IMG/VR virus record: IMGVR_UViG_3300024980_000003
Location: 1-64,000 of that record
Source: a virus
Strand: one strand, 5' to 3'
DNA length: 64,000 nt
Shown here: in pieces, positions 1 to 64,000 of the stretch
How positions within the stretch are numbered: the first letter of the stretch is position 1
How the letters are laid out: every line of letters starts with the position of its first letter
The notes under the pieces: model-generated
The model's database searches: none
What the model saw: the letters and a program-made list of their open reading frames with translations, nothing else
Told to the model about the DNA's origin: nothing
Made by a program: the position numbers and the translations under genes

Positions 1-31
1 TTATTTTTATTATCACAACGCATTGATTTAA

Positions 32-80
32 TGGAGCCAATGGCGGGAGTCGAACCCGCGACCTACTGATTACGAATCAG
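32..80 (-). pseudogene. 3' fragment of tRNA-Thr (anticodon CGU)
   Basis: Read on the minus strand, this contains an anticodon loop TTCGTAA, a T-arm with stem GCGGG/CCCGC and loop TTCGACT, the 3' acceptor strand CATTGGC, discriminator T and encoded CCA. The expected 5' half (acceptor GCCAATG and a D-arm) is absent; the sequence beyond position 80 is phage-type and identical to that at the right end. It is therefore a tRNA 3' part left or carried by integration, not a working tRNA gene. Confidence 0.8.
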
Positions 81-172
81 GACGGTTATTATTCTGGCCT
101 GTTCTTGCTAGGATTTTAATGTGTCATCAAGTGCCTGTTTTACAGGGCTTGCAGCTTTTCGTCATTCCTTTC
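32..172. repeat. Left attachment repeat (attL-like)
   Basis: The same sequence recurs at 63860-64000 and runs to the end of the window, so it is at least 141 bp long. Only two positions differ, 43 (G versus A) and 59 (C versus T). It begins with the CCA end of a tRNA-Thr read on the minus strand, crosses the anticodon stem-loop (about 67-80), and then enters non-tRNA sequence leading into the integrase. Tyrosine integrases commonly recombine within the anticodon loop of tRNA genes, so this is the probable left junction of the element. Confidence 0.85.
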
Positions 173-212
173 TGTTCCTTTTTGTGACGGTAATAATCTA
201 TTATATGTCACT

Positions 213-237
213 CCCAAAGGCACTACGAAAGGCACTA
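213..237. repeat. Arm-type repeat, left copy
   Basis: A 25-bp sequence shared exactly with 63777-63801 at the other end of the element. Inside it the 10-mer AAGGCACTAC is directly repeated after an 11-bp step. Such paired short direct repeats near both attachment sites, one beside the integrase and one beside the excisionase, are what arm-type integrase or Xis binding sites look like. The function is inferred. Confidence 0.55.
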
Positions 238-243
238 CGAAAA

Positions 244-1440
244 ATGGCATTCACCGACAAGCAGATTAAAGGACTTAAACCCAAGGCAGCGCCCTATCGC
301 CTTTTTGAAAAAGGCCCCGACAAGGGGTTCGGCATCCAGGTAACAGCAAATGGCTCGGTATCGTTTTTCATCCAGTATGCCACAAACGGGAAGAAGCGAT
401 TTTATAACTTAGGACGCTATCCCTCGGTGACGCTTTATGATGCAAGGATAAAATGCCGGGAAATCAGGGCGATGATTGATAACGGCAGCGATCCGCAAGA
501 ACAACACCCCACGCACCGTTTTGGCGTGGTGCGCGACTTGTTTGACTACTATGTAAAAAAGATGCGCGACGATGGCAAGACTACGTGGGTTGATGTGCAA
601 AATGGCCTGAATGCCAACTGCCAAGATATTATGGCTATGCAAGCTAACAAGGTTGATCCTATCCATATTAGGAAAATCCTGCATACGATCATCAACAGAG
701 GATCAGAGGTTCAGGCAAACCGTATCAGGGCTTATTTGAACCGGGCGTTTAAGCTGGGCGTTTACCATGACAATGACCCGGCAAACCTATCGAGTTCAGT
801 GATATTCCAACTCGCTATGAATCCGGTGGAAGCGATACCCAAGAACACGAAAGCCGAAGCCGCCGGTGAGCGCAACCTGTCATTTGGCGAGATCAAGACG
901 CTGTGGCATAGCAACGACATTGGCGAGCAGATGAGCATAGCCGCAAAGCTATTGTTGATTTACGGGTGCCGGATGATGGAGCTGTGCGGGGCCAAGAAAA
1001 ACGAGTTTGATTTTGACGCGATGATCTGGACGATACCTTGGGAGCGCGTTAAAACCAGCAAGAAAAATAAGCGCCCTCACCTGTTGCCGATCACGCCGCT
1101 GGCAAAAACGCTACTGGATCGGCAATTGCTCTATGCCTGGGACTCTGAGTATCTATTCCCCGGTCGGCATGACAATAGCAAACATATTCATCAAACCTCA
1201 TTGAATCATGCCATGAGGCGTGTATCCGGGCTTGATTCTTTCGATGTGAGAGCGTTACGTCGAACATGGAAAACCAGAACGGGCGAAGCTGGCATAGGTA
1301 TTGAAGTCAGGAATCTAATTCAGAACCATAGCCGAACGGATGTTAGCTCGGTGCATTATGACAAATGGAGTTATATCGCAGAAAAAAGGGCGGCTCTTGA
1401 GCGATGGGAGGCGCATCTTATTGGAATGCTGAAGGATTAA
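244..1440 (+). CDS. int: Tyrosine-family phage integrase (DUF4102 type)
   Basis: 398 residues. It catalyses site-specific recombination between phage and tRNA-Thr attachment sites. The N-terminus is the DUF4102 arm-binding fold common in tRNA-targeting prophage and island integrases (about residues 1-85, with the typical LGRYPSVTL stretch). The C-terminal catalytic domain shows Arg in YGCRMMEL, a Lys in the beta-hairpin VKTSKKNK, Arg in RALRRTWKT, His in QNHS and the nucleophile Tyr in VHYDKW. The usual His of the HxxR box is Arg here, a variant I associate with this subfamily. The ATG at 244 is preferred because upstream in-frame starts (205, GTG 121) would put the arm repeats and part of the attachment repeat into the protein. 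The stop overlaps a possible R'' box of the cassette region. It is not an IntI-type integron integrase. Confidence 0.93.
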   Translation: MAFTDKQIKGLKPKAAPYRLFEKGPDKGFGIQVTANGSVSFFIQYATNGKKRFYNLGRYPSVTLYDARIKCREIRAMIDNGSDPQEQHPTHRFGVVRDLFDYYVKKMRDDGKTTWVDVQNGLNANCQDIMAMQANKVDPIHIRKILHTIINRGSEVQANRIRAYLNRAFKLGVYHDNDPANLSSSVIFQLAMNPVEAIPKNTKAEAAGERNLSFGEIKTLWHSNDIGEQMSIAAKLLLIYGCRMMELCGAKKNEFDFDAMIWTIPWERVKTSKKNKRPHLLPITPLAKTLLDRQLLYAWDSEYLFPGRHDNSKHIHQTSLNHAMRRVSGLDSFDVRALRRTWKTRTGEAGIGIEVRNLIQNHSRTDVSSVHYDKWSYIAEKRAALERWEAHLIGMLKD

Positions 1441-6841: not shown

Positions 6842-6989
6842 GTAGTGTGTCTCCCGACAGTCTTGAGTTTGAATTATTCTAACACAAACAGACAGCAGAT
6901 TTAAGCGAAACTTGCAATAGGTTTATGGATGAATGCGACCGCCCAGTGAAGTGCGTACGCTTTTCTTAGCACGAAACGCGAGGGCCGAT

Positions 6990-7148
6990 TTAATCAGCGT
7001 CCGCTTTCTGCTCTTGATCTTCTTTAACCTTCACTTTCATGGAGTCTTTAATGTATTCGGATAATGTAATTTTTTTAGAGTCGGCAATTTCTTTCATGGA
7101 TTCCTTTAGCCATGCCGGGACAACTAAATATAATCTTTCTGATTTCAT
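6990..7148 (-). CDS. Ribbon-helix-helix-like small regulator next to tnpB
   Basis: 52 residues. A beta-like start (ERLYLVVP) followed by two helices (LKESMKEIADSK, TLSEYIKDSMKVKV) fits Arc/MetJ-type DNA-binding proteins, which bind operators as dimers. It is divergent from tnpB, and a perfect 10-bp inverted repeat covers both start codons, so it probably represses itself and the transposon nuclease gene. No toxin partner is visible. Confidence 0.62.
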   Translation of the reverse strand: MKSERLYLVVPAWLKESMKEIADSKKITLSEYIKDSMKVKVKEDQEQKADAD

Positions 7149-7195
7149 GCGTATAACCTTGCGTATGATTAATATTGATGTATAATTATACGCAT
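7147..7195. promoter_or_regulatory. Divergent promoter and operator of RHH gene and tnpB
   Basis: ATGCGTATAA (7147-7156) and TTATACGCAT (7186-7195) form a perfect inverted repeat, with a third copy of the core, GCGTAT, at 7161-7166. On the plus strand TTGCGT (7159-7164) and TATAAT (7181-7186) lie 16 bases apart and form a good sigma-70 promoter for tnpB. Operator sites overlap it and both ATGs. Confidence 0.65.
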
Positions 7196-8327
7196 GATGA
7201 TACAAAAATCCTATAAATTCAAGTTCTACCCAAATGCTGCGCAAGCCGAACAGCTGCAAAAAGAATTCGGCTGTGCGCGGTGGACATGGAATCGTGGATT
7301 GATTGAACGGGATTATGCGTATTCTCAATGGGGCGTTAGCCTGGGTTCTTTGCATGACATTGGAAAGAATATAAATCAGTACAAGAAGAATGATTATCCT
7401 TGGCTAAGTGATGCAACATCGAGCGTTATTCAGCAAAAGCTAATCGACCAAGATAAAGCGTTTAATAATTTCTTTAAAGGTCGGGCAGGTTTTCCAAAGT
7501 TCAAAAAGAAAAGCCATGCTCAAAGCATCCGCTATACGCTTGACCAGCGACAGGTTTTAAACAATTACCGGTCTGGTGAATTGTTAAAGCTGCCAAAATT
7601 GGGCGAATTAAAGATTAAATGGTCACAAGTCCCAGGCGGCATACCCAAGATGGTCACGGTATCGAAGTCGGCAAGCGGATGTTATTTCGTCAGCTTCATG
7701 TGTGAGGTCGAGCAAGACTTAAAACCGATGACCGGCAAGGTGATCGGTATTGATGTTGGTATCAAGGATGTGGTCGTAACCAGTGACGGCTTTTATTCAG
7801 GCGCGCCCAGGTTTACCTATAAGTACGCACGGCAATTGAAGAAAGCGCAACGGGTTTTAAGCCGTAAGAAAAAAGGCAGTAATGGATTTAAGAAGCAACG
7901 GATTGTGGTAGCAAAGATTCACGAAAAGATTGCAAACAGTAGAAAAGATTTTTTGCACAAAGTGACAACCAAGCTTGTGTCTGAAAATGATATTTTGTTT
8001 TTGGAAGATTTAAACGTTTCCGGGATGCTCAAGAATCGTAAGCTATCAAAAGCGGTTGCGGATGTGGGCATTTTTGAACTCAATAGGCAAATCGAGTACA
8101 AATCTCAGTGGTACGGCAAGCAGGTTGTTAAAATCAGCCGTTGGGAGCCTACGACGAAGAAGTGTAGTTCATGCGGGAATATTCGCATTATGAAATTATC
8201 GCAACGTACTTATGAGTGCGAATGTGGTTTAGTAATGTGCCGCGATCTTAACGCAGCGCATAATATTAAGGCGGCGGGGAACGTCGTTATGAGTGGAGCC
8301 GTACACCAAATTGATAAAGCCGCATGA
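7194..8327 (+). CDS. tnpB: TnpB RNA-guided nuclease (IS605 family)
   Basis: 377 residues. TnpB uses an RNA made from the element's right end to cut matching DNA. The RuvC-like site appears complete: Asp in GIDVG (about 186), Glu in FLEDLNV (about 278) and Asp in CRDLNAAHN (about 355). The zinc finger is CSSC and CEC, the second pair being one residue shorter than the usual CxxC. An N-terminal OrfB_IS605 domain (SYKFKFYPNAAQ) is intact. No tnpA nearby. A divergent RHH gene may control it. Confidence 0.92.
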   Translation: MMIQKSYKFKFYPNAAQAEQLQKEFGCARWTWNRGLIERDYAYSQWGVSLGSLHDIGKNINQYKKNDYPWLSDATSSVIQQKLIDQDKAFNNFFKGRAGFPKFKKKSHAQSIRYTLDQRQVLNNYRSGELLKLPKLGELKIKWSQVPGGIPKMVTVSKSASGCYFVSFMCEVEQDLKPMTGKVIGIDVGIKDVVVTSDGFYSGAPRFTYKYARQLKKAQRVLSRKKKGSNGFKKQRIVVAKIHEKIANSRKDFLHKVTTKLVSENDILFLEDLNVSGMLKNRKLSKAVADVGIFELNRQIEYKSQWYGKQVVKISRWEPTTKKCSSCGNIRIMKLSQRTYECECGLVMCRDLNAAHNIKAAGNVVMSGAVHQIDKAA

Positions 8328-8445
8328 GAATGATGCTTGTATCAAACGGCCGTGAAACTCGACCTGCTCTAACTGATAGCTTTCGCCTGGAGCGAGGCGG
8401 TCAGCTTGTAAGCGGATTCCAAAGGTTTTGAAGCCTATTTATTTA
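8328..8445 (+). ncRNA. Candidate omega-RNA or right-end region of first tnpB element
   Basis: Noncoding stretch after tnpB with several hairpins, such as GCTTTCGCCTGGAGCGAGGC. In this superfamily the guide RNA comes from the tnpB 3' end plus this region. I cannot fix the exact end or guide start. Confidence 0.38.
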
Positions 8446-10895: not shown

Positions 10896-10934
10896 TCAGA
10901 ATAAGGTGCTATTTAAATAATTCACCATAGAGCC

Positions 10935-12194
10935 ATGACAAAAACGATACGAAAAGCCTTTAAATTTAGGTTAAAAATTACACCTGAAACCGATGAAAAA
11001 TTAAATAATTTCGTTGGTGGATGTCGCTTTGTCTGGAACAAGTCGTTGGCTCTGAATCTGGATAGATTAAACAACAAAGAGCCTATTTTGTGGTATCAGG
11101 AGCTTAATTTTTGGGCAACAATTTGGAAGCAGTCTAATGAATACGGTTTTCTAAGCACTGTTCCTTCTCAGGCACTACAGCAAAAACTAAAAGACCTGGA
11201 TAAAGCGTTCAGTGATTGCTTTGATAAGAATCAGCCATTAAAGCGTTGCCCTGTATTCAAGAAAAAAGGACTATCCGATAGCATACGATTCCCTCAAGGC
11301 TTTAAGATCGATCAAGAAAATAGTCAGATTTTCCTGCCCAAAATAGGCTTTGTGAAATATCGCAATAGCCGCAAGGTAATTGTAGAGCCTAAGAATATCA
11401 CTGTAAGCCGCAAAGGTAAGCACTGGTACGCTTCTATTCAGGTTGAGTACGACAAAATAGATATGCCTCATAAATCAACGTCAATCGTTGGTATTGATAT
11501 GGGCGTTAAGCAGTTCTCTACTCTATCTGACGGCACTATATACCAGCCATTAAATAGTTTTAAAGGTAAAGCTGAAAAGTTAGCCAAGCTTCAACGAAAG
11601 CTAAAAAACAAAAAGAAATTCTCAAGTAATTGGAAAAAAGTAAAAACAAAAATAACAAAGTGCCATGAAGAAATAGCCAACGCTCGAAAAGATTACCTTC
11701 ACAAAGTATCAACTGAAATCTGCGAAAACCAAGCCGTGATAGTCGTTGAAGATTTGAAGGTAAAGAATATGAGCAAGTCGGCAAAAGGCAACCATGAAAA
11801 GCATGGAAAAAACGTTGCTCAAAAATCAGGATTGAACAAGTCAATTCTCGATCAAGGGTGGGGCATGTTTTTTCAAATGCTGGACTATAAGCAAGCCTGG
11901 AATGGTGGCATGGTTCTCAAAGTGCCTGCGCACCATACAAGTCAAACTTGCCCATGTTGCCAGCATGTAGCCAAAGAAAACAGACTCACACAAGCTGACT
12001 TTGTTTGTGTCGATTGCGGCTACAGCAATAACGCCGATATAGTTGGAGCATTGAATGTATTAAGCCGGGGACACCGGCAGTTAGCCTGCCTAGCGAGTGG
12101 TGAAGTAATACCACCGGCAACAGGAACCAGTGGTAAGCGGCGACGCAAGATCACTTCTGAGAAATCAGGAATCACCATTCCTTTAGGGCGGTGA
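10935..12194 (+). CDS. tnpB: TnpB RNA-guided nuclease, second and unrelated copy
   Basis: 419 residues. Domain order is N-terminal OrfB_IS605 (KAFKFRLKITPE), RuvC-like core and C-terminal zinc finger. Catalytic residues are Asp in GIDMGVKQF, Glu in VVEDLKV and Asp in NNADIVGALNVL; zinc Cys are CPCC and CVDC. It differs strongly from the tnpB at 7194, so the two came from separate insertions. The basic tail after the finger (GKRRRKITSEKSG) is encoded by DNA that also forms the 3' guide-RNA scaffold. No tnpA is present. Confidence 0.9.
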   Translation: MTKTIRKAFKFRLKITPETDEKLNNFVGGCRFVWNKSLALNLDRLNNKEPILWYQELNFWATIWKQSNEYGFLSTVPSQALQQKLKDLDKAFSDCFDKNQPLKRCPVFKKKGLSDSIRFPQGFKIDQENSQIFLPKIGFVKYRNSRKVIVEPKNITVSRKGKHWYASIQVEYDKIDMPHKSTSIVGIDMGVKQFSTLSDGTIYQPLNSFKGKAEKLAKLQRKLKNKKKFSSNWKKVKTKITKCHEEIANARKDYLHKVSTEICENQAVIVVEDLKVKNMSKSAKGNHEKHGKNVAQKSGLNKSILDQGWGMFFQMLDYKQAWNGGMVLKVPAHHTSQTCPCCQHVAKENRLTQADFVCVDCGYSNNADIVGALNVLSRGHRQLACLASGEVIPPATGTSGKRRRKITSEKSGITIPLGR

Positions 12195-12203
12195 GGATGT
12201 CAA
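12166..12203 (+). ncRNA. 3' end of omega-RNA scaffold of second tnpB
   Basis: Terminal hairpin CACC(ATT)CCTTTAGG(GC)GGTG followed by AGGATGTCAA. In this superfamily the guide begins directly after such an end, here at 12204 (TATCAATCACC...). The 5' extent of the RNA inside the gene is not defined. Confidence 0.55.
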
Positions 12204-12244
12204 TATCAATCACCCTGCAAAACCCATAGAGACAAGGAACACGA

Positions 12245-12415
12245 ATGACCAATAAAACAGATGGCAACTATTTCCTTACCATGCTAATGGTTTGCGTAGC
12301 TCCACCTGTTCTGTTCCTGCAATGGCTATTCCTTGGTGATAAGTTCGGTCATGGAAAAGCCATTGTCTTTGTGGTGACTATGTTCCTGTTCGGGTCGGCC
12401 TTCTTCTTTAATTAA
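12245..12415 (+). CDS. Small membrane protein
   Basis: 56 residues with two hydrophobic segments (TMLMVCVAPPVLFLQWLFL and AIVFVVTMFLFGSAFFF) joined by GDKFGHGK, typical of small phage-borne inner-membrane proteins. AAGGA lies 9 bases before the ATG. Its last codons overlap the end of the convergent giant gene. Confidence 0.62.
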   Translation: MTNKTDGNYFLTMLMVCVAPPVLFLQWLFLGDKFGHGKAIVFVVTMFLFGSAFFFN

Positions 12416-15400
12416 TTGAAGTAAGGGTGCGACCTTTCCACCGCCATGCGTGACACTTCGTTAGATCGTTGCATCAGTGCGTTAATCCTATCGCGCTTAT
12501 CAGTAGCACTTAGATTGCTGCGGTAAATTACATCCACCTGCGCCCTGAGTCTGCTCAACTGCTTGCCGGAAGCTTCCAGTTGACGGCGCTTGCTCAACTT
12601 GTCGGCATTATCGGTCATTAGCTCGTTGGCCTTGTCGATATTGCCTTCTTTCTTGTACGCGTTAATCGTCTTATGGATTTGATTGACTTCGTTCAGCATA
12701 TCGTAAAACTCAGTACCGTATTTGGTGTGCAGCGTGGGACGCTCCTGATAGAACGCTTTCACGACCGGCAAACTGTCAATCCTCATCGCTGGCTGATCCG
12801 GCATCCCCGATAACTGCCTAACCATCATATCCGATGCGCCCAAGGCGTACATGCCTAATGCGCCAAGATAGCCATGCAGTAAATGCTCCAGACGTTTGGG
12901 CGATGCACCTAATGCTTCCGGCAAGGACGCGCTTAACGCTCGCATGGTTTCGCTAGTGTATTCGTTATAACGTGCGCTCGGCAATTTGCCTTCGTCGGCC
13001 ATGCCTTCAATCGCCCTGCCGGTAAACATATCCTTGTTGGAGTACAGTTCGATGAACGGTTTGAATAGCTGCGGTACTGGATTGAAAGCCAAGGTATCGC
13101 TTGCGCCATGCCCCATGCGTTCGGCGTAAGTTTTCAAACTGTCTTTGCCGATCAACGCTCTCGCTGAACGCTCAGGAACAGTGCCAAAGATCAAGCCTAA
13201 CTCGAACGGTTTAGGTATCCTAAAGTGTTGATTTCCAAAGAAGAAATGCCAGTAGGTGTCTTGATCCCACGGTTCCAAAGCTTCGTAATCATCGTTATCC
13301 GAATTGAGTGCCAGCAATGCCAAAGAGAACATGGCAATCGATAAGCCTTTCGCCAGAATCATTTTCCGCGCTTCCTTGGTCTGACCTGCTTTCGCCAATC
13401 GATACAGGCCAACCAATCGGGCATTGAAGAACGGCAGCATGTCACTCATGGCCCGGATCAGCGTAAACGATCCCTGCATCGAAAAGTCCATCAGGTCTTT
13501 GGCTTCAAACAGGTATTTGGCTTTTTCTGCCCCCGCGCGTTTAGCGTTTTCAAGAATCGCTTCACGGCTGGCGTTTTCAATCGCATCGCCCACGGACCGG
13601 TACATTTCCCAATACTTCTTCGGGGTGTCGAGAATGGAATCTTTAAAGCCTTGAACGTCCTTAATGCCGCGCCTTCTCAGTGCCGCATCCATCGACTCCC
13701 TGGCCGCATCCGGGTTGCTGTAGTTGCCATAGCCGCCCTGGAATGACGCCCCGGCAAACATCATATCGACATAGCCACCTTCTTCGTTGAAAGACTTAAT
13801 CGCCCCATGAATCGAGTCAACACCGAGCTTAAAGCCTTTTTCTTCGGCAATCGTCCAGGAGTGCATGGCGTCACGGATAAAGTTTCTGGCCATGAACGTC
13901 GGGTCGGCGGTCACAGCACCGGTCAGCAAATGCTTCATGTAGCGCATTGGCTTGAAGATGCCGCCGAACGGGATTTGATTTACGGCCGTCAATGAAGTCA
14001 GCAGCATGGCATCGTTGACTTTGTAGTATTCCGACTTACCATCACGCATAACCCTAACCACATCGGGATCAGTCGGCGCTTGCATGGCCCACATCTTGGC
14101 AATACCACTCGTCAAATCAGACGGCATGGCCTCGACGATTTCTTTCGGCAAGCCCGATTCCAGCATCAGTTTTTTAACCTGCTCCTTGGGGATCAGTGCC
14201 GCCTTTAATTCAACTCTCTGGATAGCCTCGACAAAGCGCGAGCCTTCCAGATTATTCAGCGTTTTGTTCAAGGCGTCGTTCTTCATCGACGCATCGATCA
14301 AATGCGCCCAATTCTGCATCATGTTGCCGAGTGGGTCGCTCATCGGGTTATCGCCGCCTTTCAGCATTTTGATACCGGAGGTTTGGTGGGTCAGTCCACC
14401 CTTACCGCTTGGGCCTGATTTCTTGCCTTCGATCAGCCGGTAAAACGGGATATAGTCGGCGCTCTCGAACAGCTTACGCGCTTCCGCATCCACCAGTCCG
14501 GCCTCTTGCGCCAAGTCCAGCACCGAGCTATTCATGGCGGCGATGTCATCAGCCACACCTTGATAGTCGTCTTGTTCCAATTTCAGCAAGGCATCGATTT
14601 CGTCACGACTGAAATTGTTCTCTTTGCCTTCCTTAAACAATCGGTCTGCTCTGCGCCCGACCATCCAGGCAGTGAAGTTTTCCAAGTCATCCTTGACCGG
14701 CTGCAATAGCTCGGCAAACGACTTGCTGCCGTCTTTTTTCTGGATAATGCCGCCCTCCCATTTCGGCGCACCATGCAACAGCAACGCTTGCATCGTTGAG
14801 CTTGAGCCGGTTGATAGTCTTGCACTGATATAGCCTGATACCGAATGCGCCACATCGCCGAGGATTTCTTTCTCTGCGCGCTTAATGCCGATGAACTTAT
14901 CGAATATGCCCTGCTCCAGTTGCGGCTTCATTTCATCCCATTTCTGCCGGATGGCTTGAACATTAGCTTTCAGCCCGAGACTGATAATGTCGGTGATGGC
15001 TTGAGATAGCGTTTTCTTCGGGCCGAGTCCGGCCTTGCGTTTAGCTTCTTTGATAACATCGCTATCGACAGCCCTACTATACTTCACTCCGGTTTTATCG
15101 CCGCCCTTGGCTTCATAGTCATAGGCATCACCATACCAGCGTTCGGTTTTGGGACGGTTTTTATTCTTGGCGTCTTTGCTCAGTCCTACTTTGTCGCCGC
15201 CGTAGTTCTCGTAATCGTAAGCGTTGCCTTGCCATTTGTCGGCGTTTCTCGGTGCAGGAATATGATTCATTTCCTTGCCATTGAATAGCACAATCACATC
15301 ACTGTCTTGAATGTCTGCGGTGGCGCTTGGTGGCGTGGATTTGCGTTGCTCGGCGGTTAGTTCTTGTCGGGCTTGTGTGTTTCTTGACTCAACCTCTCCA

Positions 15401-18400
15401 GCTAGTCTTTTGTATTGCTCATGTGCCGTTAATGTGTTTTCTCTGGATAAGATGTTGCGCCGATCTTGCTCAAGATCAATATATTCTTGGTTCTCTGGGA
15501 ATTCACTTAACTTATCTAGCAATTCAAAATAACTTTCGGTCTGATCATTTGGCACATCATCCCAATTTAACGCTCTGCCTCTAGGCGTGTCTTTGCCATA
15601 GGTATCCTTTATTTTGATAAAGTCACGATTCTTCTTCCTGACCAGATTACCAAACTCAGGATTAGCGTCCATTAAGCCGAGTATCTTTTTATCGAGCGGC
15701 CTTCTTAGCTCATCGGTAATGTCTTTGTCTCTGAACTGGCTAGGACTTCCGCCAGTTGCAAAGCCTTCAATGCGCTGAATGCCATGCTGTATTTCATGGA
15801 GCAATACGGACATCATATTTTCTTTGCCGAAACTGCCCTCGTTCAAATGAATCAGCTTATCAGTGGCGCTGTAATTTCCTTCGGCCCCCAAGTCTTTAGT
15901 AATCAATACCCCGATTTTGCCGAGTTCTGGATACGCTTCAAACAGTTTCGGATGGTCGATAAAATCACTCAGCCTGTGCAAGCGTTTGCCATTCAGCGCC
16001 CAATCATGAAAGCTGTCGCCCCATGACGCATCGCTATCATCGATTTCAAAGCGCCACTTGCCGTCTACGCCTTTAAACCAGCCTGTTTCCTGCCGTACCG
16101 TTTCAGGATTATCTCCTGCTTCGATGCGTTGCTGTGCGCTGGATAGCTGGTAGGTGTCGGCAGTCTTGGCGTTTTGTCCGGCAAAGCTTTTGAGTATGCC
16201 GTTGCCCGTACCAGTGCCATTAACCTTTGCTCCGTATTTCGATAGCGCCGTTAAATCAGCTGGCGTGAGTGACTTGATAAATCCAAGGTCAAGGCCATTC
16301 CTCACCAAAAACGCCCGAATCGTTGCCACTAAATCGGCAAAGGTCTTTTTCAACAGGCCGGTGAAGGAGTCGGGATTCTGCGACCAGAGGGATACCATGT
16401 AAGCGCGGAATTCCGAAGCTTGATCTTTGACCGGCGTTTCTGCGGCCATTACGCGCTTGTAGGCTGCGAGTTCTATCGCGCTGCCAATACCTTTAGCGGC
16501 TCGGTCAAAACTGCGCTGTAGCTGTGCTTCAAAGCGGTCTATGGCGGCTTTGACTAGCGGGTCTTTGGATTCTGAGCGGTGAAGAAGCTCGTGACTAAGA
16601 ACGGACGACAGGTTGTTCTTGTTGAGCATATCCGAAACCAAATAAAGCTGATCTCGTTTCTCATCGTATAGGGCCTCTACGCCAGACATGTTGCTAGACT
16701 TCTTGATTTCTCCTGAATTAAAGTCTATATTTATTGCTGACGCTAATGGTGTGGCTTTAGACTTCGTGTCGAGCAAGGCATTATGACCTGCGGCTATGCC
16801 ATTAGTCGTCTTTCTATTTGAATAAAAAGTGATAATAGACTCTTTATTTCCTTTTGCCGATACAACAACTTTAAATCTAACCCCACCTGAATTAAGCGTA
16901 TAAATATGCTTTTGTCCTGCAATATCAAGTTTGCCATCACGAACTACTTTGCCTAGATCAAGAATCTCATTTGCTGTTATATAGCCTTTTTTACCGCTAA
17001 AATGATCGAGTAAGATATGCGTCTTACCAAATCTCTCATGCCCTTGTGATAAATTAACAAATTCCTTTACATGCTCAAGGTCGCTTTTTCTGATCTCTGA
17101 GCGAATTTTTGTATCAGTGATAACATCATAAATACCTTTCTGTTCTTTAGATAGACTTGATGTTGAGCCTATTTCTTTTATAAACCCATCAATTAAAGAA
17201 GCTATTTTGGCTTGCGTATATTTTGTTGGCTTAATCCTTGACTCTAACGCAATTCCACGCTCTTGCAGATGCTTGGGCAAATCCTCAACCGTTTGCACGA
17301 TATTCAAAATCCCCGCATCCACCAGCTTATTCACGCGCTTAGGCAATAGCTTCTTGATGTCGGCTACGGTGCTGCCGGTGGTGGGTTGGGATTTGCTGGC
17401 TTTAATGTCCTGTTTCCAATCAATGCCCTTTCTTTCAAGAAGTCGCCTTGCTGCCTGAGTTGCATCATTATCAGGATGTCCATTGGCCGTGGCAATCGTA
17501 GCTTCTCTGGTGGTTGGCGGCCTTATCTTTCCGTTTGCCACCTTATCTGCATATTCTTTTCGCAGTTCACCCCTACGTATTATTAGTTCGTGATCTTTCT
17601 TGGCTTGAGCTTGAACCTGTCTTCTGTGCGTATTAGGACTTTTACGGTTAGAACTCATGTGTAACGCGGCGTCGCCAATATCCTGTCTGGATGCACCATT
17701 TGACGCTAGATATTCTTCCTCTGTCATTACAGGAATATCACCCTGCTTCTCACCAGTCACCTTGGCTAGGCTTGGTTGGGATGGTTCGGAAGTAACCGCC
17801 GATGGTGCGCTTCGTTCGAGTGGCGTCAGCGGTGTTGTTTGTTCGCTTATCCTTTCTTCCCCTTCGCCCGATACATCGGATTCAGCATCGCCGCCTGTTG
17901 CTGGCGTTTCATCTCGGCCTGTATTTGCTCGTCGGTTTGGTAGTACTGTGCTGGCTTTTGGGGATTGGGTTTGGTCATTTGCTTGTTGCCTTGGTCTTGC
18001 ATATATTACTGATTGATCGTCTTTCGATGTGGCAATAACATCATTTCCACTTACCTTTAACGCTCTCGTTAAAGAAGCGAATCCAGCCGATGACAAGCCG
18101 CTAGGGAATGTTAGCTTTACAGTGCCTTCTTTATCCGGCGTGGAAATAGCGTGGATTCCGTATTCATCAAGAATCGCCTTGCCAACTTCGTGCGCTTCGA
18201 CCGATTTATCTCTAACAATTAGCCTGTTTGAGCTATAATTATCAGCAACACGGCCCTCATCGGTATTGCTTATTTTTGCAATATTGCTTGAGGGTTCTTT
18301 TTTTGTGAGCACATCAGAATCTTGTACAGAATCCGCTTGATTAAAGTCAACGCCCCTTACCCTGTCAGCGCCAAATCTGCCTCTTGCCCATCCAGTTATA

Positions 18401-21171
18401 TCTTTAATGGTATCGCGCTTTGAATTGATTTCGTTTATTTCGGATGGAGTAAAGCCTTTGCTGGCTAAATTATCGCCAGCTGCCACTTTCGGCGCATGAC
18501 CAAACCCACCCTCTACCGGCACCACATGATGCGTGGCTTCGCTGATGTTGGGATAGCCTTTGCTCTTTAAGGCAACCTCGGCTGATTTTGCCGTCTTGAA
18601 GGGTTTGTTTTGGTTGCTTAGGGTTGGTTTTAATTCCCCTTCAATGCTTTCACCCAGTCCTCCGAGTAGTCTGGATGAAGTATTTGTACGCTGCATCGCG
18701 TTTTGCGATTGTGTAGCCTCGCCATTTGCAGTCTTTGTTTTTTGTTGGGTCTTGTTTTCTTGGACATTTGCTTTAGCCGATGTTTCCGTCTTGAAGGGTT
18801 GGTTTTGGTTGCTGAGTGTGGCTACATTTGCGTTATCCGCACCTGGTGTAAGTTGTCCTTTATTTTGCTGAACTGTATTTTTCTGAACTTGTGCCGCTGG
18901 TTCTGCTCCGCTCGCCAATGCAGGATTTGATTGACGATCATTGGGAATCTGTATTTGTTCACTCGTAGGTTTAACCGTCGCTTTGTCAGATTCTGCGCTC
19001 GGCGTTTGTGTCGATATAGCTTCATTTTTTATATCCTGTTTAATCGGCGCTGCATCTTCATCGGATGGGGTGCTTAGGGTTGGTTTAGCATTACCTCTGA
19101 CTGAATCAATTACTTTCTGAGCAACGCTATTTTTGCCATGTGTGCCGTATTCATCACCAAGCACTGACTGAGAAAACACATAGGCAATATAATCATCCTT
19201 GGTCATGCCTTGCGGTATTCTTGCATCTTCACTATTAGCAAAAGATTCAATGCGTTTAATTTCGTCGCCCAGCTTTTCAACTGTTAAGTCGCCGTTAGTT
19301 AAGCGTTGAACTAACTCGGCTGTTTTTCGTGCATTTTCTCTGTGCTGCTTAACGCGATTATTGCGCTTGCTTTCATTGATTGCGCCAATAGACATGGATT
19401 CGCTATTGGAATAAGGATGGTATCTATCGTCAAAATCGACAACATTCTTATTGTCTTTGTATTTCTTATTGGCGAATTCATCAGATTTAACCGTTTCTGA
19501 TTCAGCGTGTTTTGTTAAGGCCGAGACAATGGCATCCGTTGACGCTTTTCTTTGCGCTGTTTCTTTCTCTGCGCCAGCAAACCAATCCTCATTGAATAAG
19601 TCTGTAGCGTCACCTAATTGACCAGCATTGCCGTTTCCTGCCTCGCCTGTAGCTGACACTCCATCAGCATTATCGTATTCTGTTGCGCCTCGATGATCTG
19701 CTGGGCGAATAGCATCGCTTGCTGCCAGTCCTGTTGCGTTGGGTTTTCCTGTGTTGGGTATATCGGTTGTAACATTGTTATTCGTGTTCGGTTGAGTGGT
19801 CTTGGTTGATGGCGGTTGTTGTGCTTTGCGCTGTTCGGCTAGGCGTTGGTTGAGCAGGTCTTGCGGAGTTAATTCATTGCTTGCTGCTGTAGCTTCCAGA
19901 TTATCCGCTTCGCCATTAATGCCGACGCGTCCAGCATTGCCTCGTAATTTTTCTGTTGCATCATAAATAGGGTTATTTTCCTCGGGCTCGATAGCGATAT
20001 TATATCCATCTAAACCACCTTCGCCAGTAGCCAGAGTATCAGACGGTCTAAATGGCTGTTTCTGTTCATCTGATATAGATTCACTTGCGGATATTTCTTG
20101 TTGTAGCCCTGATCGTTCCCCATTGTTTCCCCTTATGTCATCGGTTGTTGGTGTTTGAATAACAGGCGCTTTCGCGGCGGCTTTGGATAATGGGCTAGAG
20201 ACCGCATTGACACCACCACCCATTAAGCTTCCCGCTAATGAGCCTTCGACAAAGTTTCTACCCATGCCTTGCGTTACGGGCTTATCTTCGGCCAAGTTTT
20301 GCAGACCTGTTTCAGCTATCGACTGCAAGCCTTCCTCAATCGGGCCTTCTTGTATCGCGCCGCCGATAACACGTCTAGCCAGCGATTGATTCACATCGCC
20401 CATACCAGCGCTGACTCCGCCTGCCGCTATCGCATCAATATCAGCCAACGCAATATCATCTAAGCCAAATCGGTTAGCAATGCGATTGGTAATGCGATTG
20501 CTTTGATTGCCGATTAATGCGCCCGAAAAGCCTGTGCCTGCCGCTGCTAATGCCGCTATCTGTGGGTCAACGCTCTCGTCAATGTTCGCCATTGACTGGC
20601 CGGCCATGATCGCACCTTCACCGACATTACCGGCTAAGGCGGCACGTTTGGCTACTTCCGCCGCCGTTCCGGTTTTCGCTAAGGCATTAAGGCCCGTTGC
20701 AGTCCGTCCTAATGCGCCACCCGCATACATAGAGGGCAATGACTCGACAACGGTTCCCATGATAGCGCGTGGATTCGTAGCGTACGCCTTTGCAACATCC
20801 AGGGCATTCGTGTTGGGATCATCCCACACCTGATTGACATTCTGCCGCGCTTGCTGCATTGCCGGTGAATAAGCGTTATCTGCATCTTTAGCCCATTGGC
20901 TAGGCTTGAATCCAGTGGCGTTACCAATCGCATCGGTCGCCCTATCGAATGGCCGGTTAATCCCCAATAAGCTAGGCTGAATATCGGCCAGTCCTGTGAT
21001 TGCGCCGGGGATCTGCATCACGCCCTTGCCAAGGCCGACTAAGGTATCGTTGATAATCCCCTTGTTGCCTTGGCCGGATTGCCCTGAAATAGGCTTAATG
21101 TCAGACAAATCAATAGCGGCACTTTTATTGATCGGCTGAATATCCGATAAATCCATAAAATCATCTGACAT
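12412..21171 (-). CDS. Giant polyvalent virion protein (2919 residues)
   Basis: Probably packaged in the capsid and ejected into the host. It fits the large polyvalent proteins described for phages and conjugative elements, which string together effector and protective domains. Visible parts: a Gly/Ala-rich N-terminal half up to about 330; long low-complexity Gln/Ser/Thr stretches to about 1250; a nuclease-like segment ending VKFKVVV-style (FKVVVSAKGNKESIITFYSNR, residues about 1434-1455, reminiscent of Barnase-EndoU-type domains); a zincin-like SHELLH at about 1526; a second zincin-like LLHEIQH at about 1788; and a C-terminal 900 residues like domain LPD38, with a hydrophobic segment near 2610. 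Last gene of the leftward late operon. Confidence 0.8.
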   Translation of the reverse strand: MSDDFMDLSDIQPINKSAAIDLSDIKPISGQSGQGNKGIINDTLVGLGKGVMQIPGAITGLADIQPSLLGINRPFDRATDAIGNATGFKPSQWAKDADNAYSPAMQQARQNVNQVWDDPNTNALDVAKAYATNPRAIMGTVVESLPSMYAGGALGRTATGLNALAKTGTAAEVAKRAALAGNVGEGAIMAGQSMANIDESVDPQIAALAAAGTGFSGALIGNQSNRITNRIANRFGLDDIALADIDAIAAGGVSAGMGDVNQSLARRVIGGAIQEGPIEEGLQSIAETGLQNLAEDKPVTQGMGRNFVEGSLAGSLMGGGVNAVSSPLSKAAAKAPVIQTPTTDDIRGNNGERSGLQQEISASESISDEQKQPFRPSDTLATGEGGLDGYNIAIEPEENNPIYDATEKLRGNAGRVGINGEADNLEATAASNELTPQDLLNQRLAEQRKAQQPPSTKTTQPNTNNNVTTDIPNTGKPNATGLAASDAIRPADHRGATEYDNADGVSATGEAGNGNAGQLGDATDLFNEDWFAGAEKETAQRKASTDAIVSALTKHAESETVKSDEFANKKYKDNKNVVDFDDRYHPYSNSESMSIGAINESKRNNRVKQHRENARKTAELVQRLTNGDLTVEKLGDEIKRIESFANSEDARIPQGMTKDDYIAYVFSQSVLGDEYGTHGKNSVAQKVIDSVRGNAKPTLSTPSDEDAAPIKQDIKNEAISTQTPSAESDKATVKPTSEQIQIPNDRQSNPALASGAEPAAQVQKNTVQQNKGQLTPGADNANVATLSNQNQPFKTETSAKANVQENKTQQKTKTANGEATQSQNAMQRTNTSSRLLGGLGESIEGELKPTLSNQNKPFKTAKSAEVALKSKGYPNISEATHHVVPVEGGFGHAPKVAAGDNLASKGFTPSEINEINSKRDTIKDITGWARGRFGADRVRGVDFNQADSVQDSDVLTKKEPSSNIAKISNTDEGRVADNYSSNRLIVRDKSVEAHEVGKAILDEYGIHAISTPDKEGTVKLTFPSGLSSAGFASLTRALKVSGNDVIATSKDDQSVIYARPRQQANDQTQSPKASTVLPNRRANTGRDETPATGGDAESDVSGEGEERISEQTTPLTPLERSAPSAVTSEPSQPSLAKVTGEKQGDIPVMTEEEYLASNGASRQDIGDAALHMSSNRKSPNTHRRQVQAQAKKDHELIIRRGELRKEYADKVANGKIRPPTTREATIATANGHPDNDATQAARRLLERKGIDWKQDIKASKSQPTTGSTVADIKKLLPKRVNKLVDAGILNIVQTVEDLPKHLQERGIALESRIKPTKYTQAKIASLIDGFIKEIGSTSSLSKEQKGIYDVITDTKIRSEIRKSDLEHVKEFVNLSQGHERFGKTHILLDHFSGKKGYITANEILDLGKVVRDGKLDIAGQKHIYTLNSGGVRFKVVVSAKGNKESIITFYSNRKTTNGIAAGHNALLDTKSKATPLASAINIDFNSGEIKKSSNMSGVEALYDEKRDQLYLVSDMLNKNNLSSVLSHELLHRSESKDPLVKAAIDRFEAQLQRSFDRAAKGIGSAIELAAYKRVMAAETPVKDQASEFRAYMVSLWSQNPDSFTGLLKKTFADLVATIRAFLVRNGLDLGFIKSLTPADLTALSKYGAKVNGTGTGNGILKSFAGQNAKTADTYQLSSAQQRIEAGDNPETVRQETGWFKGVDGKWRFEIDDSDASWGDSFHDWALNGKRLHRLSDFIDHPKLFEAYPELGKIGVLITKDLGAEGNYSATDKLIHLNEGSFGKENMMSVLLHEIQHGIQRIEGFATGGSPSQFRDKDITDELRRPLDKKILGLMDANPEFGNLVRKKNRDFIKIKDTYGKDTPRGRALNWDDVPNDQTESYFELLDKLSEFPENQEYIDLEQDRRNILSRENTLTAHEQYKRLAGEVESRNTQARQELTAEQRKSTPPSATADIQDSDVIVLFNGKEMNHIPAPRNADKWQGNAYDYENYGGDKVGLSKDAKNKNRPKTERWYGDAYDYEAKGGDKTGVKYSRAVDSDVIKEAKRKAGLGPKKTLSQAITDIISLGLKANVQAIRQKWDEMKPQLEQGIFDKFIGIKRAEKEILGDVAHSVSGYISARLSTGSSSTMQALLLHGAPKWEGGIIQKKDGSKSFAELLQPVKDDLENFTAWMVGRRADRLFKEGKENNFSRDEIDALLKLEQDDYQGVADDIAAMNSSVLDLAQEAGLVDAEARKLFESADYIPFYRLIEGKKSGPSGKGGLTHQTSGIKMLKGGDNPMSDPLGNMMQNWAHLIDASMKNDALNKTLNNLEGSRFVEAIQRVELKAALIPKEQVKKLMLESGLPKEIVEAMPSDLTSGIAKMWAMQAPTDPDVVRVMRDGKSEYYKVNDAMLLTSLTAVNQIPFGGIFKPMRYMKHLLTGAVTADPTFMARNFIRDAMHSWTIAEEKGFKLGVDSIHGAIKSFNEEGGYVDMMFAGASFQGGYGNYSNPDAARESMDAALRRRGIKDVQGFKDSILDTPKKYWEMYRSVGDAIENASREAILENAKRAGAEKAKYLFEAKDLMDFSMQGSFTLIRAMSDMLPFFNARLVGLYRLAKAGQTKEARKMILAKGLSIAMFSLALLALNSDNDDYEALEPWDQDTYWHFFFGNQHFRIPKPFELGLIFGTVPERSARALIGKDSLKTYAERMGHGASDTLAFNPVPQLFKPFIELYSNKDMFTGRAIEGMADEGKLPSARYNEYTSETMRALSASLPEALGASPKRLEHLLHGYLGALGMYALGASDMMVRQLSGMPDQPAMRIDSLPVVKAFYQERPTLHTKYGTEFYDMLNEVNQIHKTINAYKKEGNIDKANELMTDNADKLSKRRQLEASGKQLSRLRAQVDVIYRSNLSATDKRDRINALMQRSNEVSRMAVERSHPYFN

Positions 21172-24754: not shown

Positions 24755-26378
24755 CGGCTTTCACCAACTCTGACAACAGCGTAAACTCGCCCACTTTGAT
24801 ACTCAGATCAACACCGGCGGTTGTTTTAACCGGAATCTCCGTAGTCTGGTAATACTGGCCGCTACTGTCCTTGATCAACAGCCATACTTTGACATGGCCG
24901 GTGTTGTTCCAAACCCTGACGTTATGCACCCCATCTTCAACTTCGCAGGGAATGCCGAAGCGCTTTTGCATGGCGTAGGTGTTCTTGTCTGTGCTAATAA
25001 CATTCGCTCGGCTATTCGCCGTCATGTTATACGAATGGTAAATCCGGCAATCGTCAACAACCACGCCGCTCAAGCCGACATCGGTGTATTGCGTGTCAGA
25101 AGAATTGGCTCGGGCGGCATATTTAGACAGAACCGAATCTTCGTAGCCGTACTGATCGCCGGTGGAGGACGGAATCATGAACAGGCCGAACTCGCCGTTG
25201 CCTTGCCGGGTATCGGTAAACACGATATTGCTGCCGTCGATATAAAACCCCGAATAACTGATAAAGCCGTTATTATCCACCCGCTTGTTGATCGCCTGAA
25301 TACGGGTATTGTAAAAATCAAACTCAAAGTAGGTTTTGGTCGATTCCTGGAAAGGCGCATAATTTGCAAAGGACAGGTTGTAGCCTTCCTCAGATGCAGC
25401 ATTGGCGGTTGCTACAAAATTGTCCCGATTAGCATTCCAGTTGTCAAAGTTCATTTGCCCTGTGGTGACGCCGCCCGGATAGTTATACTCGGAACCGGCA
25501 TCCCTTGCACACTGGTCAGGGAAAAATGGAGCTACCACTTGACTATGACCACCGCCATAATGGGAGGCTAAGCCTTCATACGTATAGCCAAAGTCTTTGG
25601 TGTAGGGGACGGCACCGATCGCCAAATAATTGACAGCCCCAAGCAGCGTACAACTACAAGGAATCGTTTCTTCCTCCCACGTCACATCGGTGCCGTAATC
25701 CGCATCCACGCCGCACGTGCCTGAACTATAGGTATAGCTGGTCACATACGTCCAGCCCGGATTCAGCGTTGGCCTAAATTCAGTCACCGCCTCGGTTGAC
25801 CAGGTAATCGGCCCTAATCCAGTCACCGTGTGCGTATACACTCGGGTTTGTACGCATACCTGCTGAAATTTCACATTAGGGTCGTAATCGCCGTTGACGT
25901 AGCTATATAAATCCACGTAGAACGCATTATTGTGGATGAAGCCTGGAAAGTCGTTGCCATTGTTCTCGGCAATCACTTCGCCGTTGTACTTGGTTAGAGT
26001 CTTGCCGGATGGCGTTGTCAGTGAAACTTCGTAATAGTCCTGTGCAATACTATCATCAATGAAGTCTTGCACGATATAGCCGATGCACTTAGGAATGCTG
26101 TCCGTAGACGCAACCGCCAGCGCTGTCACATCCACGCCGATCTCGTCAATATCAGCCAGCCCATACTGATTAGACCGCGCATACAGCTTAACCTGATCTT
26201 CCAGCGTCTTGCGGGTAATGCCGTCCTTAATGCCGCCTAGCTGCATCTTGCGCTTCAATTCTCCGAGCAGTAATCGCGCTTTGGCTTCATACGTCGCGCA
26301 CAGGTTAGGATCTCCCAGAAAGTTCCGCAGTACCGGGCCGAGTTCCAAACCGCCGATGTGCTTGCCGTTGAAAAACAC
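24744..26378 (-). CDS. Virion structural protein, possible tail or fibre part
   Basis: 544 residues, beta-rich with many Tyr, Asn, Thr and Gly, no signal. Early helical region (EAKARLLLGELKRKMQL) followed by jelly-roll-like strands. It lies in a block of fibre-like genes. No family recognised. The start overlaps the last base of the upstream stop. Confidence 0.55.
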   Translation of the reverse strand: MFFNGKHIGGLELGPVLRNFLGDPNLCATYEAKARLLLGELKRKMQLGGIKDGITRKTLEDQVKLYARSNQYGLADIDEIGVDVTALAVASTDSIPKCIGYIVQDFIDDSIAQDYYEVSLTTPSGKTLTKYNGEVIAENNGNDFPGFIHNNAFYVDLYSYVNGDYDPNVKFQQVCVQTRVYTHTVTGLGPITWSTEAVTEFRPTLNPGWTYVTSYTYSSGTCGVDADYGTDVTWEEETIPCSCTLLGAVNYLAIGAVPYTKDFGYTYEGLASHYGGGHSQVVAPFFPDQCARDAGSEYNYPGGVTTGQMNFDNWNANRDNFVATANAASEEGYNLSFANYAPFQESTKTYFEFDFYNTRIQAINKRVDNNGFISYSGFYIDGSNIVFTDTRQGNGEFGLFMIPSSTGDQYGYEDSVLSKYAARANSSDTQYTDVGLSGVVVDDCRIYHSYNMTANSRANVISTDKNTYAMQKRFGIPCEVEDGVHNVRVWNNTGHVKVWLLIKDSSGQYYQTTEIPVKTTAGVDLSIKVGEFTLLSELVKAVDL

Positions 26379-27352
26379 TAGATTTTCCTGGTCAGCTTTT
26401 CCACATTAAGAACAAGGTCATCGACCACCGCCGAGCTGCCCGCGACATTCTCCAGCTTGAATTTCCAATATTTCCCCTTGCAGCCTCGGCCTAAATTCGC
26501 CTTGCTGGTTTTCATTTGCGTGGTCGCCGCTATCGTGTACGGATTAGCGCCGGTTGTTTCGTCAGTCACCGTAAGTTTAAGTTTGCCGCCTTTTACCCCA
26601 AGCCACGCATCCGGTATGCGCTTTAAGTAATGGTCGCCAAAGTCCAGCCGTCCGGTTTCGATGAAGGCGTTTATAGCCGTGCCATTATCAGTTGCACCAG
26701 AAAGCGTGTGTATGCCGGTGCTATCAGCCCCAAGGCTATTTGACAGGCTATTAAAGCCATAATTCTCAAACTTACTGACAGCAAAAGTGTTGAGATTAAT
26801 CGCATAGCCATAGAACACCTCATTGGCAAGGAAATCATACGTGGCATCCAGATAGCCCGTAGCCGCCGTGTACGCATTGAAATCGTAAGACGCATCCAGA
26901 TAGCCGATGGACGGCGTATAAGCCAGCAGATCATAACTGACATCGATATAGCCGGTCTTTTGCTGATAGGCTTGCAGGTCGTAAGTGGCATCGAGATAGC
27001 CGACTTTCCGGCTGTACGCCAGCAGGTCATAGCTGGCATCCAGATAGCCTGTTTGCTCCGCGTAGCAGTTCAGGTCATAGCTGCCGTTGACATAGCCGAC
27101 TGCTTCCGTATAGGCCAATAGGTCATAACTGGCATCGACATAGCCGGTTTGTTCGGAGTAGGCTAACAGGTCGTAACTGGCATTCAGATAGCCGACCAGC
27201 GCCGTACGTACCGGCAGAGCAAACGCTACAGACGGCGATACCGGATAGCTCAGGGTCTTGACGAACTGCCCGTTGCCAATCGGTCGCATCACGACGACCG
27301 GGGCTTTAAGTTCCCTGCGCCGCCTGATCCAGTTGCCGCCGTTACGGAACAT
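26378..27352 (-). CDS. Structural protein with eight 16-residue repeats
   Basis: 324 residues. Residues 53-180 are eight tandem copies of a 16-residue unit of the form xGYLDASYDLLAYxxx, with Gly-Tyr at the start and Tyr-Asp in the middle kept in every copy. The C-terminal 140 residues are a beta-rich domain (VTDETTGANPYTIAATTQ). Probably a fibre or spike-associated protein. DNA repeat copies differ mainly at third codon positions and at the linker. Confidence 0.62.
   Translation of the reverse strand: MFRNGGNWIRRRRELKAPVVVMRPIGNGQFVKTLSYPVSPSVAFALPVRTALVGYLNASYDLLAYSEQTGYVDASYDLLAYTEAVGYVNGSYDLNCYAEQTGYLDASYDLLAYSRKVGYLDATYDLQAYQQKTGYIDVSYDLLAYTPSIGYLDASYDFNAYTAATGYLDATYDFLANEVFYGYAINLNTFAVSKFENYGFNSLSNSLGADSTGIHTLSGATDNGTAINAFIETGRLDFGDHYLKRIPDAWLGVKGGKLKLTVTDETTGANPYTIAATTQMKTSKANLGRGCKGKYWKFKLENVAGSSAVVDDLVLNVEKLTRKI
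26813..27196 (-). repeat. 48-bp tandem repeat inside a structural gene
   Basis: Eight units of 48 bp encoding the 16-residue repeat above. Copies are diverged enough to be stable but can still change in number by recombination. Confidence 0.75.
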
Positions 27353-37238: not shown

Positions 37239-37451
37239 AGGTTTCCTTCGGCGGCTCAATGCCGCTCATCTACGGGATTTAGCGCGTCATCTCGACGAGC
37301 GTTTTCTTTGGGGTTCCTTCGGCGGCACAAGACCGCCCATTTACAGGATTTAGCGCGTCATCTCGACGAGCGTTTTCTTTGGGGTTCCTTCGGCGGCACA
37401 AGACCGCCCATTTACAGGATTTAGCGCGTCATCTCGACGAGCGTTTTCGGT
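37239..37451 (-). repeat. Three 71-bp tandem repeats in the capsid leader
   Basis: Units start near 37239, 37310 and 37381. Each contains CCTTCGGCGG, a GGCGG/CCGCC-type hairpin and CGTCATCTCGACG (at 37285, 37356 and 37427), a variant of the dispersed hairpin. They fill the gap between the scaffold-like gene end and the capsid ribosome site and contain no real ORF. Confidence 0.85.
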
Positions 37452-56266: not shown

Positions 56267-56464
56267 TTAATCGGTTGGATAGATTTCCTCAAACAAATCG
56301 CCGGGCCTTACGCCTTCTTTCATGGCGACTACGTTTATATGGTCAGGAGACATTGGTTTTTTACCATTAATCCAATCGGACACGGTTGCTTGAGATACAC
56401 CAATGCTCTCGGCCATTGCCTTTTGTGTGCTATATCGGCTGTAAATTTCGTGGAGTATTTTCAT
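56267..56464 (-). CDS. cro: Cro-like repressor
   Basis: 65 residues. YSTQKAMAESIGVSQATVSD then WINGKKPMSPDHINVVAMKE is a YdaS/Cro-type helix-turn-helix. It is divergent from the CI-like gene and would bind the same operators to favour lytic growth. ATG 56464 is used. Followed by a terminator. Confidence 0.82.
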   Translation of the reverse strand: MKILHEIYSRYSTQKAMAESIGVSQATVSDWINGKKPMSPDHINVVAMKEGVRPGDLFEEIYPTD

Positions 56465-56474
56465 GAGACACATT

Positions 56475-56517
56475 ATAGCCGATAGCGAAACATTAGCAAT
56501 AGTTAATAGCGAATTAA
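56475..56517. promoter_or_regulatory. Operator set between cro and cI
   Basis: ATAGCCGATAGCGAA (56475-56489) and TTAATAGCGAATTAA (56503-56517), with AGCAATAG between, are related sites. The first is the reverse complement of TTCGCTATCGGCTAT at 57821-57835, so the same repressor should bind both places. The divergent starts at 56464 and 56538 flank it. Confidence 0.72.
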
Positions 56518-56537
56518 ATTTAGCACATAATAAGCCT

Positions 56538-63575: not shown

Positions 63576-63773
63576 GTGATTGAAGAACAAAAAACAAAGC
63601 AAAAAGAATTTCTACGCATATCTGATATGCTGGTTAAGATGGGCGGGATAACCCGCAAACAGTTTTGGATGCTACGCAAAAAAGGCCATGTGCCTGAACC
63701 AATCATTCCCGATCCGCCGATCTGGAGACTGAAAGATGTGGATGCGTTTTATGACAAGCGAGCCGGGTTATAA
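63576..63773 (+). CDS. xis: Probable excisionase, AlpA-like
   Basis: 65 residues. FLRISDMLVKMGGITRKQFW then LRKKGHVPEPIIPD and WRLKDVDAFYD form a winged helix of the AlpA/MerR-like group that directs excision. It starts with GTG, with GAGG 8 bases upstream, and is the last gene before the right attachment repeat, next to an arm-type repeat. Confidence 0.75.
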   Translation: MIEEQKTKQKEFLRISDMLVKMGGITRKQFWMLRKKGHVPEPIIPDPPIWRLKDVDAFYDKRAGL

Positions 63774-63776
63774 TTT

Positions 63777-63801
63777 CCCAAAGGCACTACGAAAGGCACT
63801 A
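63777..63801. repeat. Arm-type repeat, right copy
   Basis: Identical over 25 bp to 213-237, again with AAGGCACTA twice in direct repeat. Lies directly after the probable xis. Confidence 0.55.
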
Positions 63802-63818
63802 TCATTTTTGATGGGCAT

Positions 63819-63849
63819 AAAAAAAATCCTTGAGATTGAGTTCAAGGCT
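63819..63849 (-). terminator. Terminator downstream of the tRNA-Thr fragment
   Basis: Read leftward, CCTTGA and TCAAGG pair and are followed by eight T. This is how a host tRNA gene would end, so the fragment at 63860 may be derived from a former host copy. The left fragment at 32-80 has no such hairpin in the 31 bases available. Confidence 0.65.
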
Positions 63850-63859
63850 TTGATTTAAT

Positions 63860-63908
63860 TGGAGCCAATGACGGGAGTCGAACCCGTGACCTACTGATTA
63901 CGAATCAG
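63860..63908 (-). pseudogene. 3' fragment of tRNA-Thr, second copy
   Basis: Same extent as 32-80, with T-stem ACGGG/CCCGT in place of GCGGG/CCCGC: a base pair changed on both sides. The 5' half is again missing and replaced by phage-type sequence. Confidence 0.78.
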
Positions 63909-64000
63909 GACGGTTATTATTCTGGCCTGTTCTTGCTAGGATTTTAATGTGTCATCAAGTGCCTGTTTTACAGGGCTTGCAGCTTTTCGTCATTCCTTTC
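63860..64000. repeat. Right attachment repeat
   Basis: Matches 32-172 at all but two positions and is cut by the window end. It continues into the integrase leader rather than into a tRNA 5' half. Confidence 0.85.

Follow-up and report, generated by a model that had tools for sequence, protein, structure and literature searches.

The window analysed here, which covers positions 1-64000 of a viral record of 64,014 bp, begins and ends with the same sequence: the 3' part of a tRNA gene followed by the leader of a phage integrase. The original prediction described both ends as phage-type junctions at tRNA-Thr(CGU), a description that is borne out, and saw in them a possible tandem array of prophages. 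What arrangement of phage DNA would place such a junction at each end of one record? The features that bear on this question are collected in Table 1.

Two versions of a tRNA-Thr 3' end

The repeat predicted at 32-172 and 63860-64000 is present. Bases 27-172 and 63855-64000 are 97% identical, and in the full 64,014-bp record the repeat runs on to 186 and 64014. The last mismatch between the copies is a C at 59 against a T at 63887, after which 60-186 and 63888-64014 are identical over exactly 127 bp. Because this identity stops at the record's own final base, 64014, the record carries no right-hand sequence past the shared overlap. A second integrase leader had been proposed to start at the right end; leader sequence does lie there, but since the source stops 14 bases past the window, it consists of the shared overlap only.

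ARAGORN found no tRNA in the whole window. The T-stem of the left copy reads GCGGG/CCCGC and that of the right copy ACGGG/CCCGT, a compensatory change of pair 49-65 from G-C to A-U that leaves both stems fully paired, as had been predicted. The proposal that the copies derive from two functional tRNA versions also holds up, as the left T-arm is that of an intact tRNA-Thr in the bacterial genome G415 and the right T-arm that of an intact tRNA in genome G443. The further proposal, that the T-stem difference excludes a circular molecule, fails: a contig that enters through an integrated left junction (attL) and exits by way of attP, the attachment site in free phage, gives the same picture. Contig ends that are repeats might also be pure direct terminal repeats of a linear phage genome. 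The difference in the T-stem, the divergence of the copies left of the core and a sister contig that is opened at another place (G001, below) make that reading exceedingly improbable.

The integrase adjoins the attachment core, with 163 bp between the end of the core at 80 and the integrase start at 244. The window has four occurrences of the motif AAAGGCACTA against 0.16 expected, in pairs spaced 12 bp apart on either side of the core, and comparable paired motifs precede several related integrases, as judged by eye. The 65-aa ORF that adjoins attP was matched by neither Pfam nor PHROG at E 0.001 and, by its position only, is possibly an excisionase. Downstream of the tRNA 3' end is a hairpin whose fold is weak; it is suggestive only of a terminator supplied together with the tRNA end.

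Table 1. Features of the window that surround the two tRNA-Thr 3' ends.
Feature	Position	Strand	Basis
Non-phage flank, probably bacterial sequence downstream of tRNA-Thr(CGU)	1..31	.	Not common to phage right end
attL core (most likely): displaced tRNA-Thr(CGU) 3' part, from anticodon loop through 3' end, with T-arm G49-C65 of host type	32..80	-	Window 25-80 equal to G415
127-bp exact repeat of 63888-64014; inferred graph vertex merging attL and attP	60..186	+	Sequence identity; ends of G001 overlap by 127 bp at another place
Probable arm-type sites of the integrase, two copies of AAAGGCACTA spaced 12 bp apart (216-225, 228-237)	213..240	+	Motif count
Tyrosine integrase, 398 aa (P0001)	244..1440	+	Pfam Arm-DNA-bind_3 and Phage_integrase; phrog_1 integrase
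Small ORF, 65 aa, adjoining attP	63576..63773	+	ORF call
Second probable arm-type pair (63780-63789, 63792-63801)	63776..63803	+	Motif count
Weak hairpin with T-run downstream of tRNA 3' end	63815..63858	-	-8.1 kcal/mol, z -1.86, 11/200 shuffles as good
attP core: phage-borne tRNA-Thr(CGU) 3' part, T-arm A49-U65	63860..63908	-	T-arm as in G001, G002 and the intact tRNA of G443
Integrase leader start, second copy; overlap continues to contig end 64014	63888..64000	+	Comparison with full record

Probable integrated and free forms of one phage

Two viral contigs reveal the context of the right copy. The first, G001 (IMGVR_UViG_3300024967_000001, 64,401 bp), is a sister phage whose integrase is 94% identical to that of the window and whose right end is 96.6% identical to window 63544-64014. 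The second, G002 (IMGVR_UViG_3300004178_000008), comes from a second sample, and all of its 26,559 bp are identical to window 37389-63947. Since phage right end, tRNA core and integrase follow one another without interruption in G001, whose core has the T-arm ACGGG/CCCGT of the right copy, and G002 shares this T-arm in its core, the sequence comparison identifies the right copy as attP. An exact search of viral contigs with the core and the phage T-arm returned G001 and G002 only, and no attL or attR contig; records near to the window may have been omitted from this search. A broader tRNA-Thr pattern was found in eight viral contigs, of which G002 and G001 belong with the phage of the window, and the remaining six resemble the window at most over the tRNA piece.

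The left copy is most likely attL, as its core is that of a bacterial tRNA-Thr(CGU) and its flank is absent from the phage. Window 25-80 equals 56 of 56 bases in G415, where ARAGORN predicts an intact tRNA-Thr(CGU). The best genome match that extends into the flank is in G421 (88% over window 1-80, tRNA part included), and a full-length match to bases 1-31 was found in none of the genomes examined. An exact search of viral contigs, again possibly lacking records near to the window, gave no match to part of the left flank with the start of the core. The left flank is probably host chromosome. It could instead be that the left 59 bases come from another element, or from a variant of the phage with a different right end, which the use of the tRNA-Thr site by several elements and the flank's lack of a full-length match would allow. 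This is very unlikely, as the right ends of G001 and G002 resemble the window's right end and not its left flank, and as the left core agrees throughout with the bacterial gene. The simplest reading of the G-C and A-U pairs is a host version and a phage version of the tRNA, and with the two versions read in this way a single insertion together with free phage suffices.

The lengths of the overlaps suggest how the two junctions came to lie on one contig. The ends of G001 overlap each other by exactly 127 bp, at a place unrelated to the overlap of the window. A usual largest k in metaSPAdes is 127, and from these overlap lengths the k of the record was probably 127. The first 60 bp of G002 are an exact copy of a segment of a 71-bp tandem repeat, and the contig ends exactly 60 bp beyond base 63887, the last difference between attL and attP, as if its assembly, with a k of 60, had broken at the same branch as that of the window. 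Both assemblies appear to break where two differing left neighbours join one sequence, which suggests a de Bruijn graph in which attL and attP merge into one integrase leader. A circular or concatemeric form fits the exact 127-bp overlap, the overlapping ends and identical attP of G001 and the shared stop point of G002.

We therefore consider it very probable that the record represents a single temperate phage whose integrated and free (circular or concatemeric) forms coexisted and were joined by assembly. The phage genome would be 63,828 bp (60 to 63887), with an integrase that uses the 3' part of tRNA-Thr(CGU) as its recombination site. At the left end, attL would comprise host flank, the displaced host tRNA 3' end and then the integrase; at the right end, attP of phage that is not integrated, in circular or concatemeric form, would comprise the phage right end, the phage-borne tRNA 3' end and the integrase leader. 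In a sample that contained both integrated and unintegrated forms, the attL and attP paths would merge at the first base past their last difference, and a de Bruijn assembler could come in via one path, go out via the other and halt after one 127-base k-mer. Once integrated, the phage would restore the tRNA at the other junction, attR, by means of the tRNA 3' end that it carries. This removes what is likely a false lead: a viral contig with phage-type junctions and diverged repeats at its ends can combine integrated and free forms in a mosaic, and an overlap of exactly one k-mer that reaches the last base of a contig offers a quick test for such mosaics.

The tRNA-Thr(CGU) site and the probable host

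A search of genome contigs with the integrase returned only a distant integrase from Grimontia (36%), which was used as the centre of two class searches with 369 genomes drawn for each. Window 1-82 was matched in 34 genomes (E <= 1e-9) and the integrase in two (E <= 1e-60). Genome G258 was the top match in both, so its family was examined. Within that family, 60 of 237 genomes matched window 1-82 (E <= 1e-13), 19 of them with at least two copies of the tRNA 3' end; up to three candidates were scored per genome, so the copy counts are lower bounds. Exactly one intact tRNA-Thr and one truncated copy were present in 17 of these 19 genomes, in 11 of the 17 on one contig. In G421 there are two intact copies plus a fragment at a contig end (L099, not matched in the reading of T-stems). 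G591 has one intact and two truncated 3' ends on three contigs (L118, L119, L120) with two T-arm types, which makes it a candidate case of different elements accreting at a single site.

The T-stems of the intact and truncated copies are identical in 11 of the 17 genomes and different in six, so a T-stem difference is not the rule. In two of the six, G418 and G422, the intact copy has A-U at pair 49-65 and the truncated copy G-C, with both stems fully paired and one T-loop base different too; in the other four the T-stems differ otherwise and are not all fully paired. The two copies of G418 lie on separate contigs. Those of G422 are 6.5 kb apart on one contig and flank an element with its own integrase-like ORF, and thus diverged T-arms at both ends of a single element do occur. 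This 6.5-kb island (L127, 137-6764), inserted in the same tRNA-Thr, encodes by eye an integrase-like ORF and a 770-aa primase-like ORF, and is possibly a phage satellite.

Integrases related to that of the window are found at 30 places in 29 of the 237 genomes (E <= 1e-50). We inspected by eye the bases upstream of 25 of the 30, together with those of the Grimontia integrase. A truncated tRNA 3' end lies ahead of the integrase in 21 of these 26, with anticodon GTT in 17, CTT in two and CAT in one, and tRNA-Thr in one. The other five had no tRNA end within the 330 bases read, two of them being matches that start inside the gene. tRNA-Thr(CGU) is an insertion hot spot in the host-like family.

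The tandem array of the original prediction, with at least two prophage copies at one tRNA-Thr site, would make the right junction a seam and the left one the outer attL. At a seam, phage right end, core and integrase leader would follow one another just as they do in attP; the observed junctions therefore fit an array, as had been proposed, and the ends of G591 indicate that accretion at tRNA-Thr may occur. An array is nevertheless superfluous once attL and attP coexist, and G001, with its overlapping ends, passes through attP without a host junction. Moreover, 17 of the 19 multi-copy genomes fit one insertion, although these counts are of tRNA 3' copies among at most three candidates per genome and not of adjacent phage copies. 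Free and tandem forms have identical junction sequences, and nothing observed favours the tandem form. The ends are best read as an assembly mixture of integrated and free phage, and as such do not point specifically to a series of prophages. We consider a tandem array very unlikely and infer that the attP form was free; the likelihoods we give to the array and to coexisting integrated and free phage are judgements and not computed odds.

The match of the left core to bacterial tRNA-Thr genes points to a host group. PF02461 (AMO) scored above its cut-off in all eight genomes of G258's family that were tested and in none of 14 controls. The proteins from G415 and G258 are nearest to particulate methane monooxygenase subunits in PDB, with bit scores of 521 and 560, respectively, for methane monooxygenase against 279 and 272 for ammonia monooxygenase. 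On these matches and scores, the family, which we take to be Methylomonadaceae, probably consists of methane oxidisers of the Gammaproteobacteria. Judged by the tRNA match, the phage would infect this family. Among the titles listed from one library of open-access literature, none dealt with a tRNA-Thr phage of methane oxidisers.

An F116-related temperate phage

The record is an F116-related temperate phage, where homology of the portal and head proteins together with gene order is our own choice of criterion and not a published demarcation. Its P22-type portal is 49.7% identical to those of the F116-like phages (Hollowayvirus) F116 and phiC725A, within a range of 47.7-49.7% across the 15 best phage records, these two included. 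The head protein is 52-55% identical to the eight matches listed, which are mostly from Pseudomonas phages and do not include F116. For the terminase, the best matches are Xanthomonas phage PBR31 (70%) and others, with F116 not among the best eight of 2029. The order of terminase, portal, head protein and giant protein is that of F116, the size is similar (63.8 against 65.2 kb), and the integrase lies beside the attachment site, as it does in F116-like phages. The probable hosts are methane oxidisers, whereas the F116-like relatives are Pseudomonas phages. The phage also encodes a repressor (56463-57263) with Peptidase_S24 and a CI-type helix-turn-helix, as well as RecT and a RecE-like exonuclease. 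A DNA search of 50,697 phage records gave no match to the first 2 kb of the phage.

Several further features were observed along the phage genome. A stretch of about 1.5 kb with a TnpB/OrfB-family gene (6925-8416, gene at 7194-8327) is missing from G001, where the match that stops at 6924 abuts the one that begins at 8417, the two overlapping by 13 bp. This is a clean insertion, for which G001 supplies the empty site to compare. A second TnpB-family gene (10935-12194) lies inside 10896-15076, which is unmatched in the compared parts of G001. At 12412-21171 is a gene for a 2919-aa protein with the large-polyvalent-protein domains LPD38 and LPD23, in a position like that of the giant proteins of F116. 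Repeats spaced by 48 bases at 26826-27208, in ORF 26378-27352, correspond to a 16-residue protein repeat. The 71-bp unit within which G002 begins is present three times in tandem at 37240-37452, adjoining the major head protein gene.

In the tRNA-targeting prophages and islands with tyrosine integrases that Islander catalogues (PMC4383910), the tRNA 3' end of the element rebuilds the gene and the displaced fragment marks the opposite end, as would be the case for this phage. The contig here shows attL and attP and not attL and attR; otherwise there is no difference in principle. According to PMC5217972, phiC725A, itself F116-like, inserts at a 17-bp site between two tRNA genes, whereas the site here is the 3' part of tRNA-Thr. 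The same paper describes phiC725A as kept both as a prophage and as an episome, a precedent for attL and attP occurring together.

Virions of phiC725A, as PMC5217972 reports, contained attP and hybrids of the attL side only. By analogy, the host junction may have been caught only at the integrase side because the phage packages outward from the integrated copy in one direction, a reading that we regard as unlikely. The terminase, portal and head genes lie on the minus strand and are directed at the integrase and attL. Should packaging run toward attL, particles would contain the host DNA left of position 1, giving a one-sided, att-anchored transduction by a methane-oxidiser phage. Together, these analyses provide a probable host group, and tRNA-Thr(CGU) as the insertion site, for an F116-related phage.
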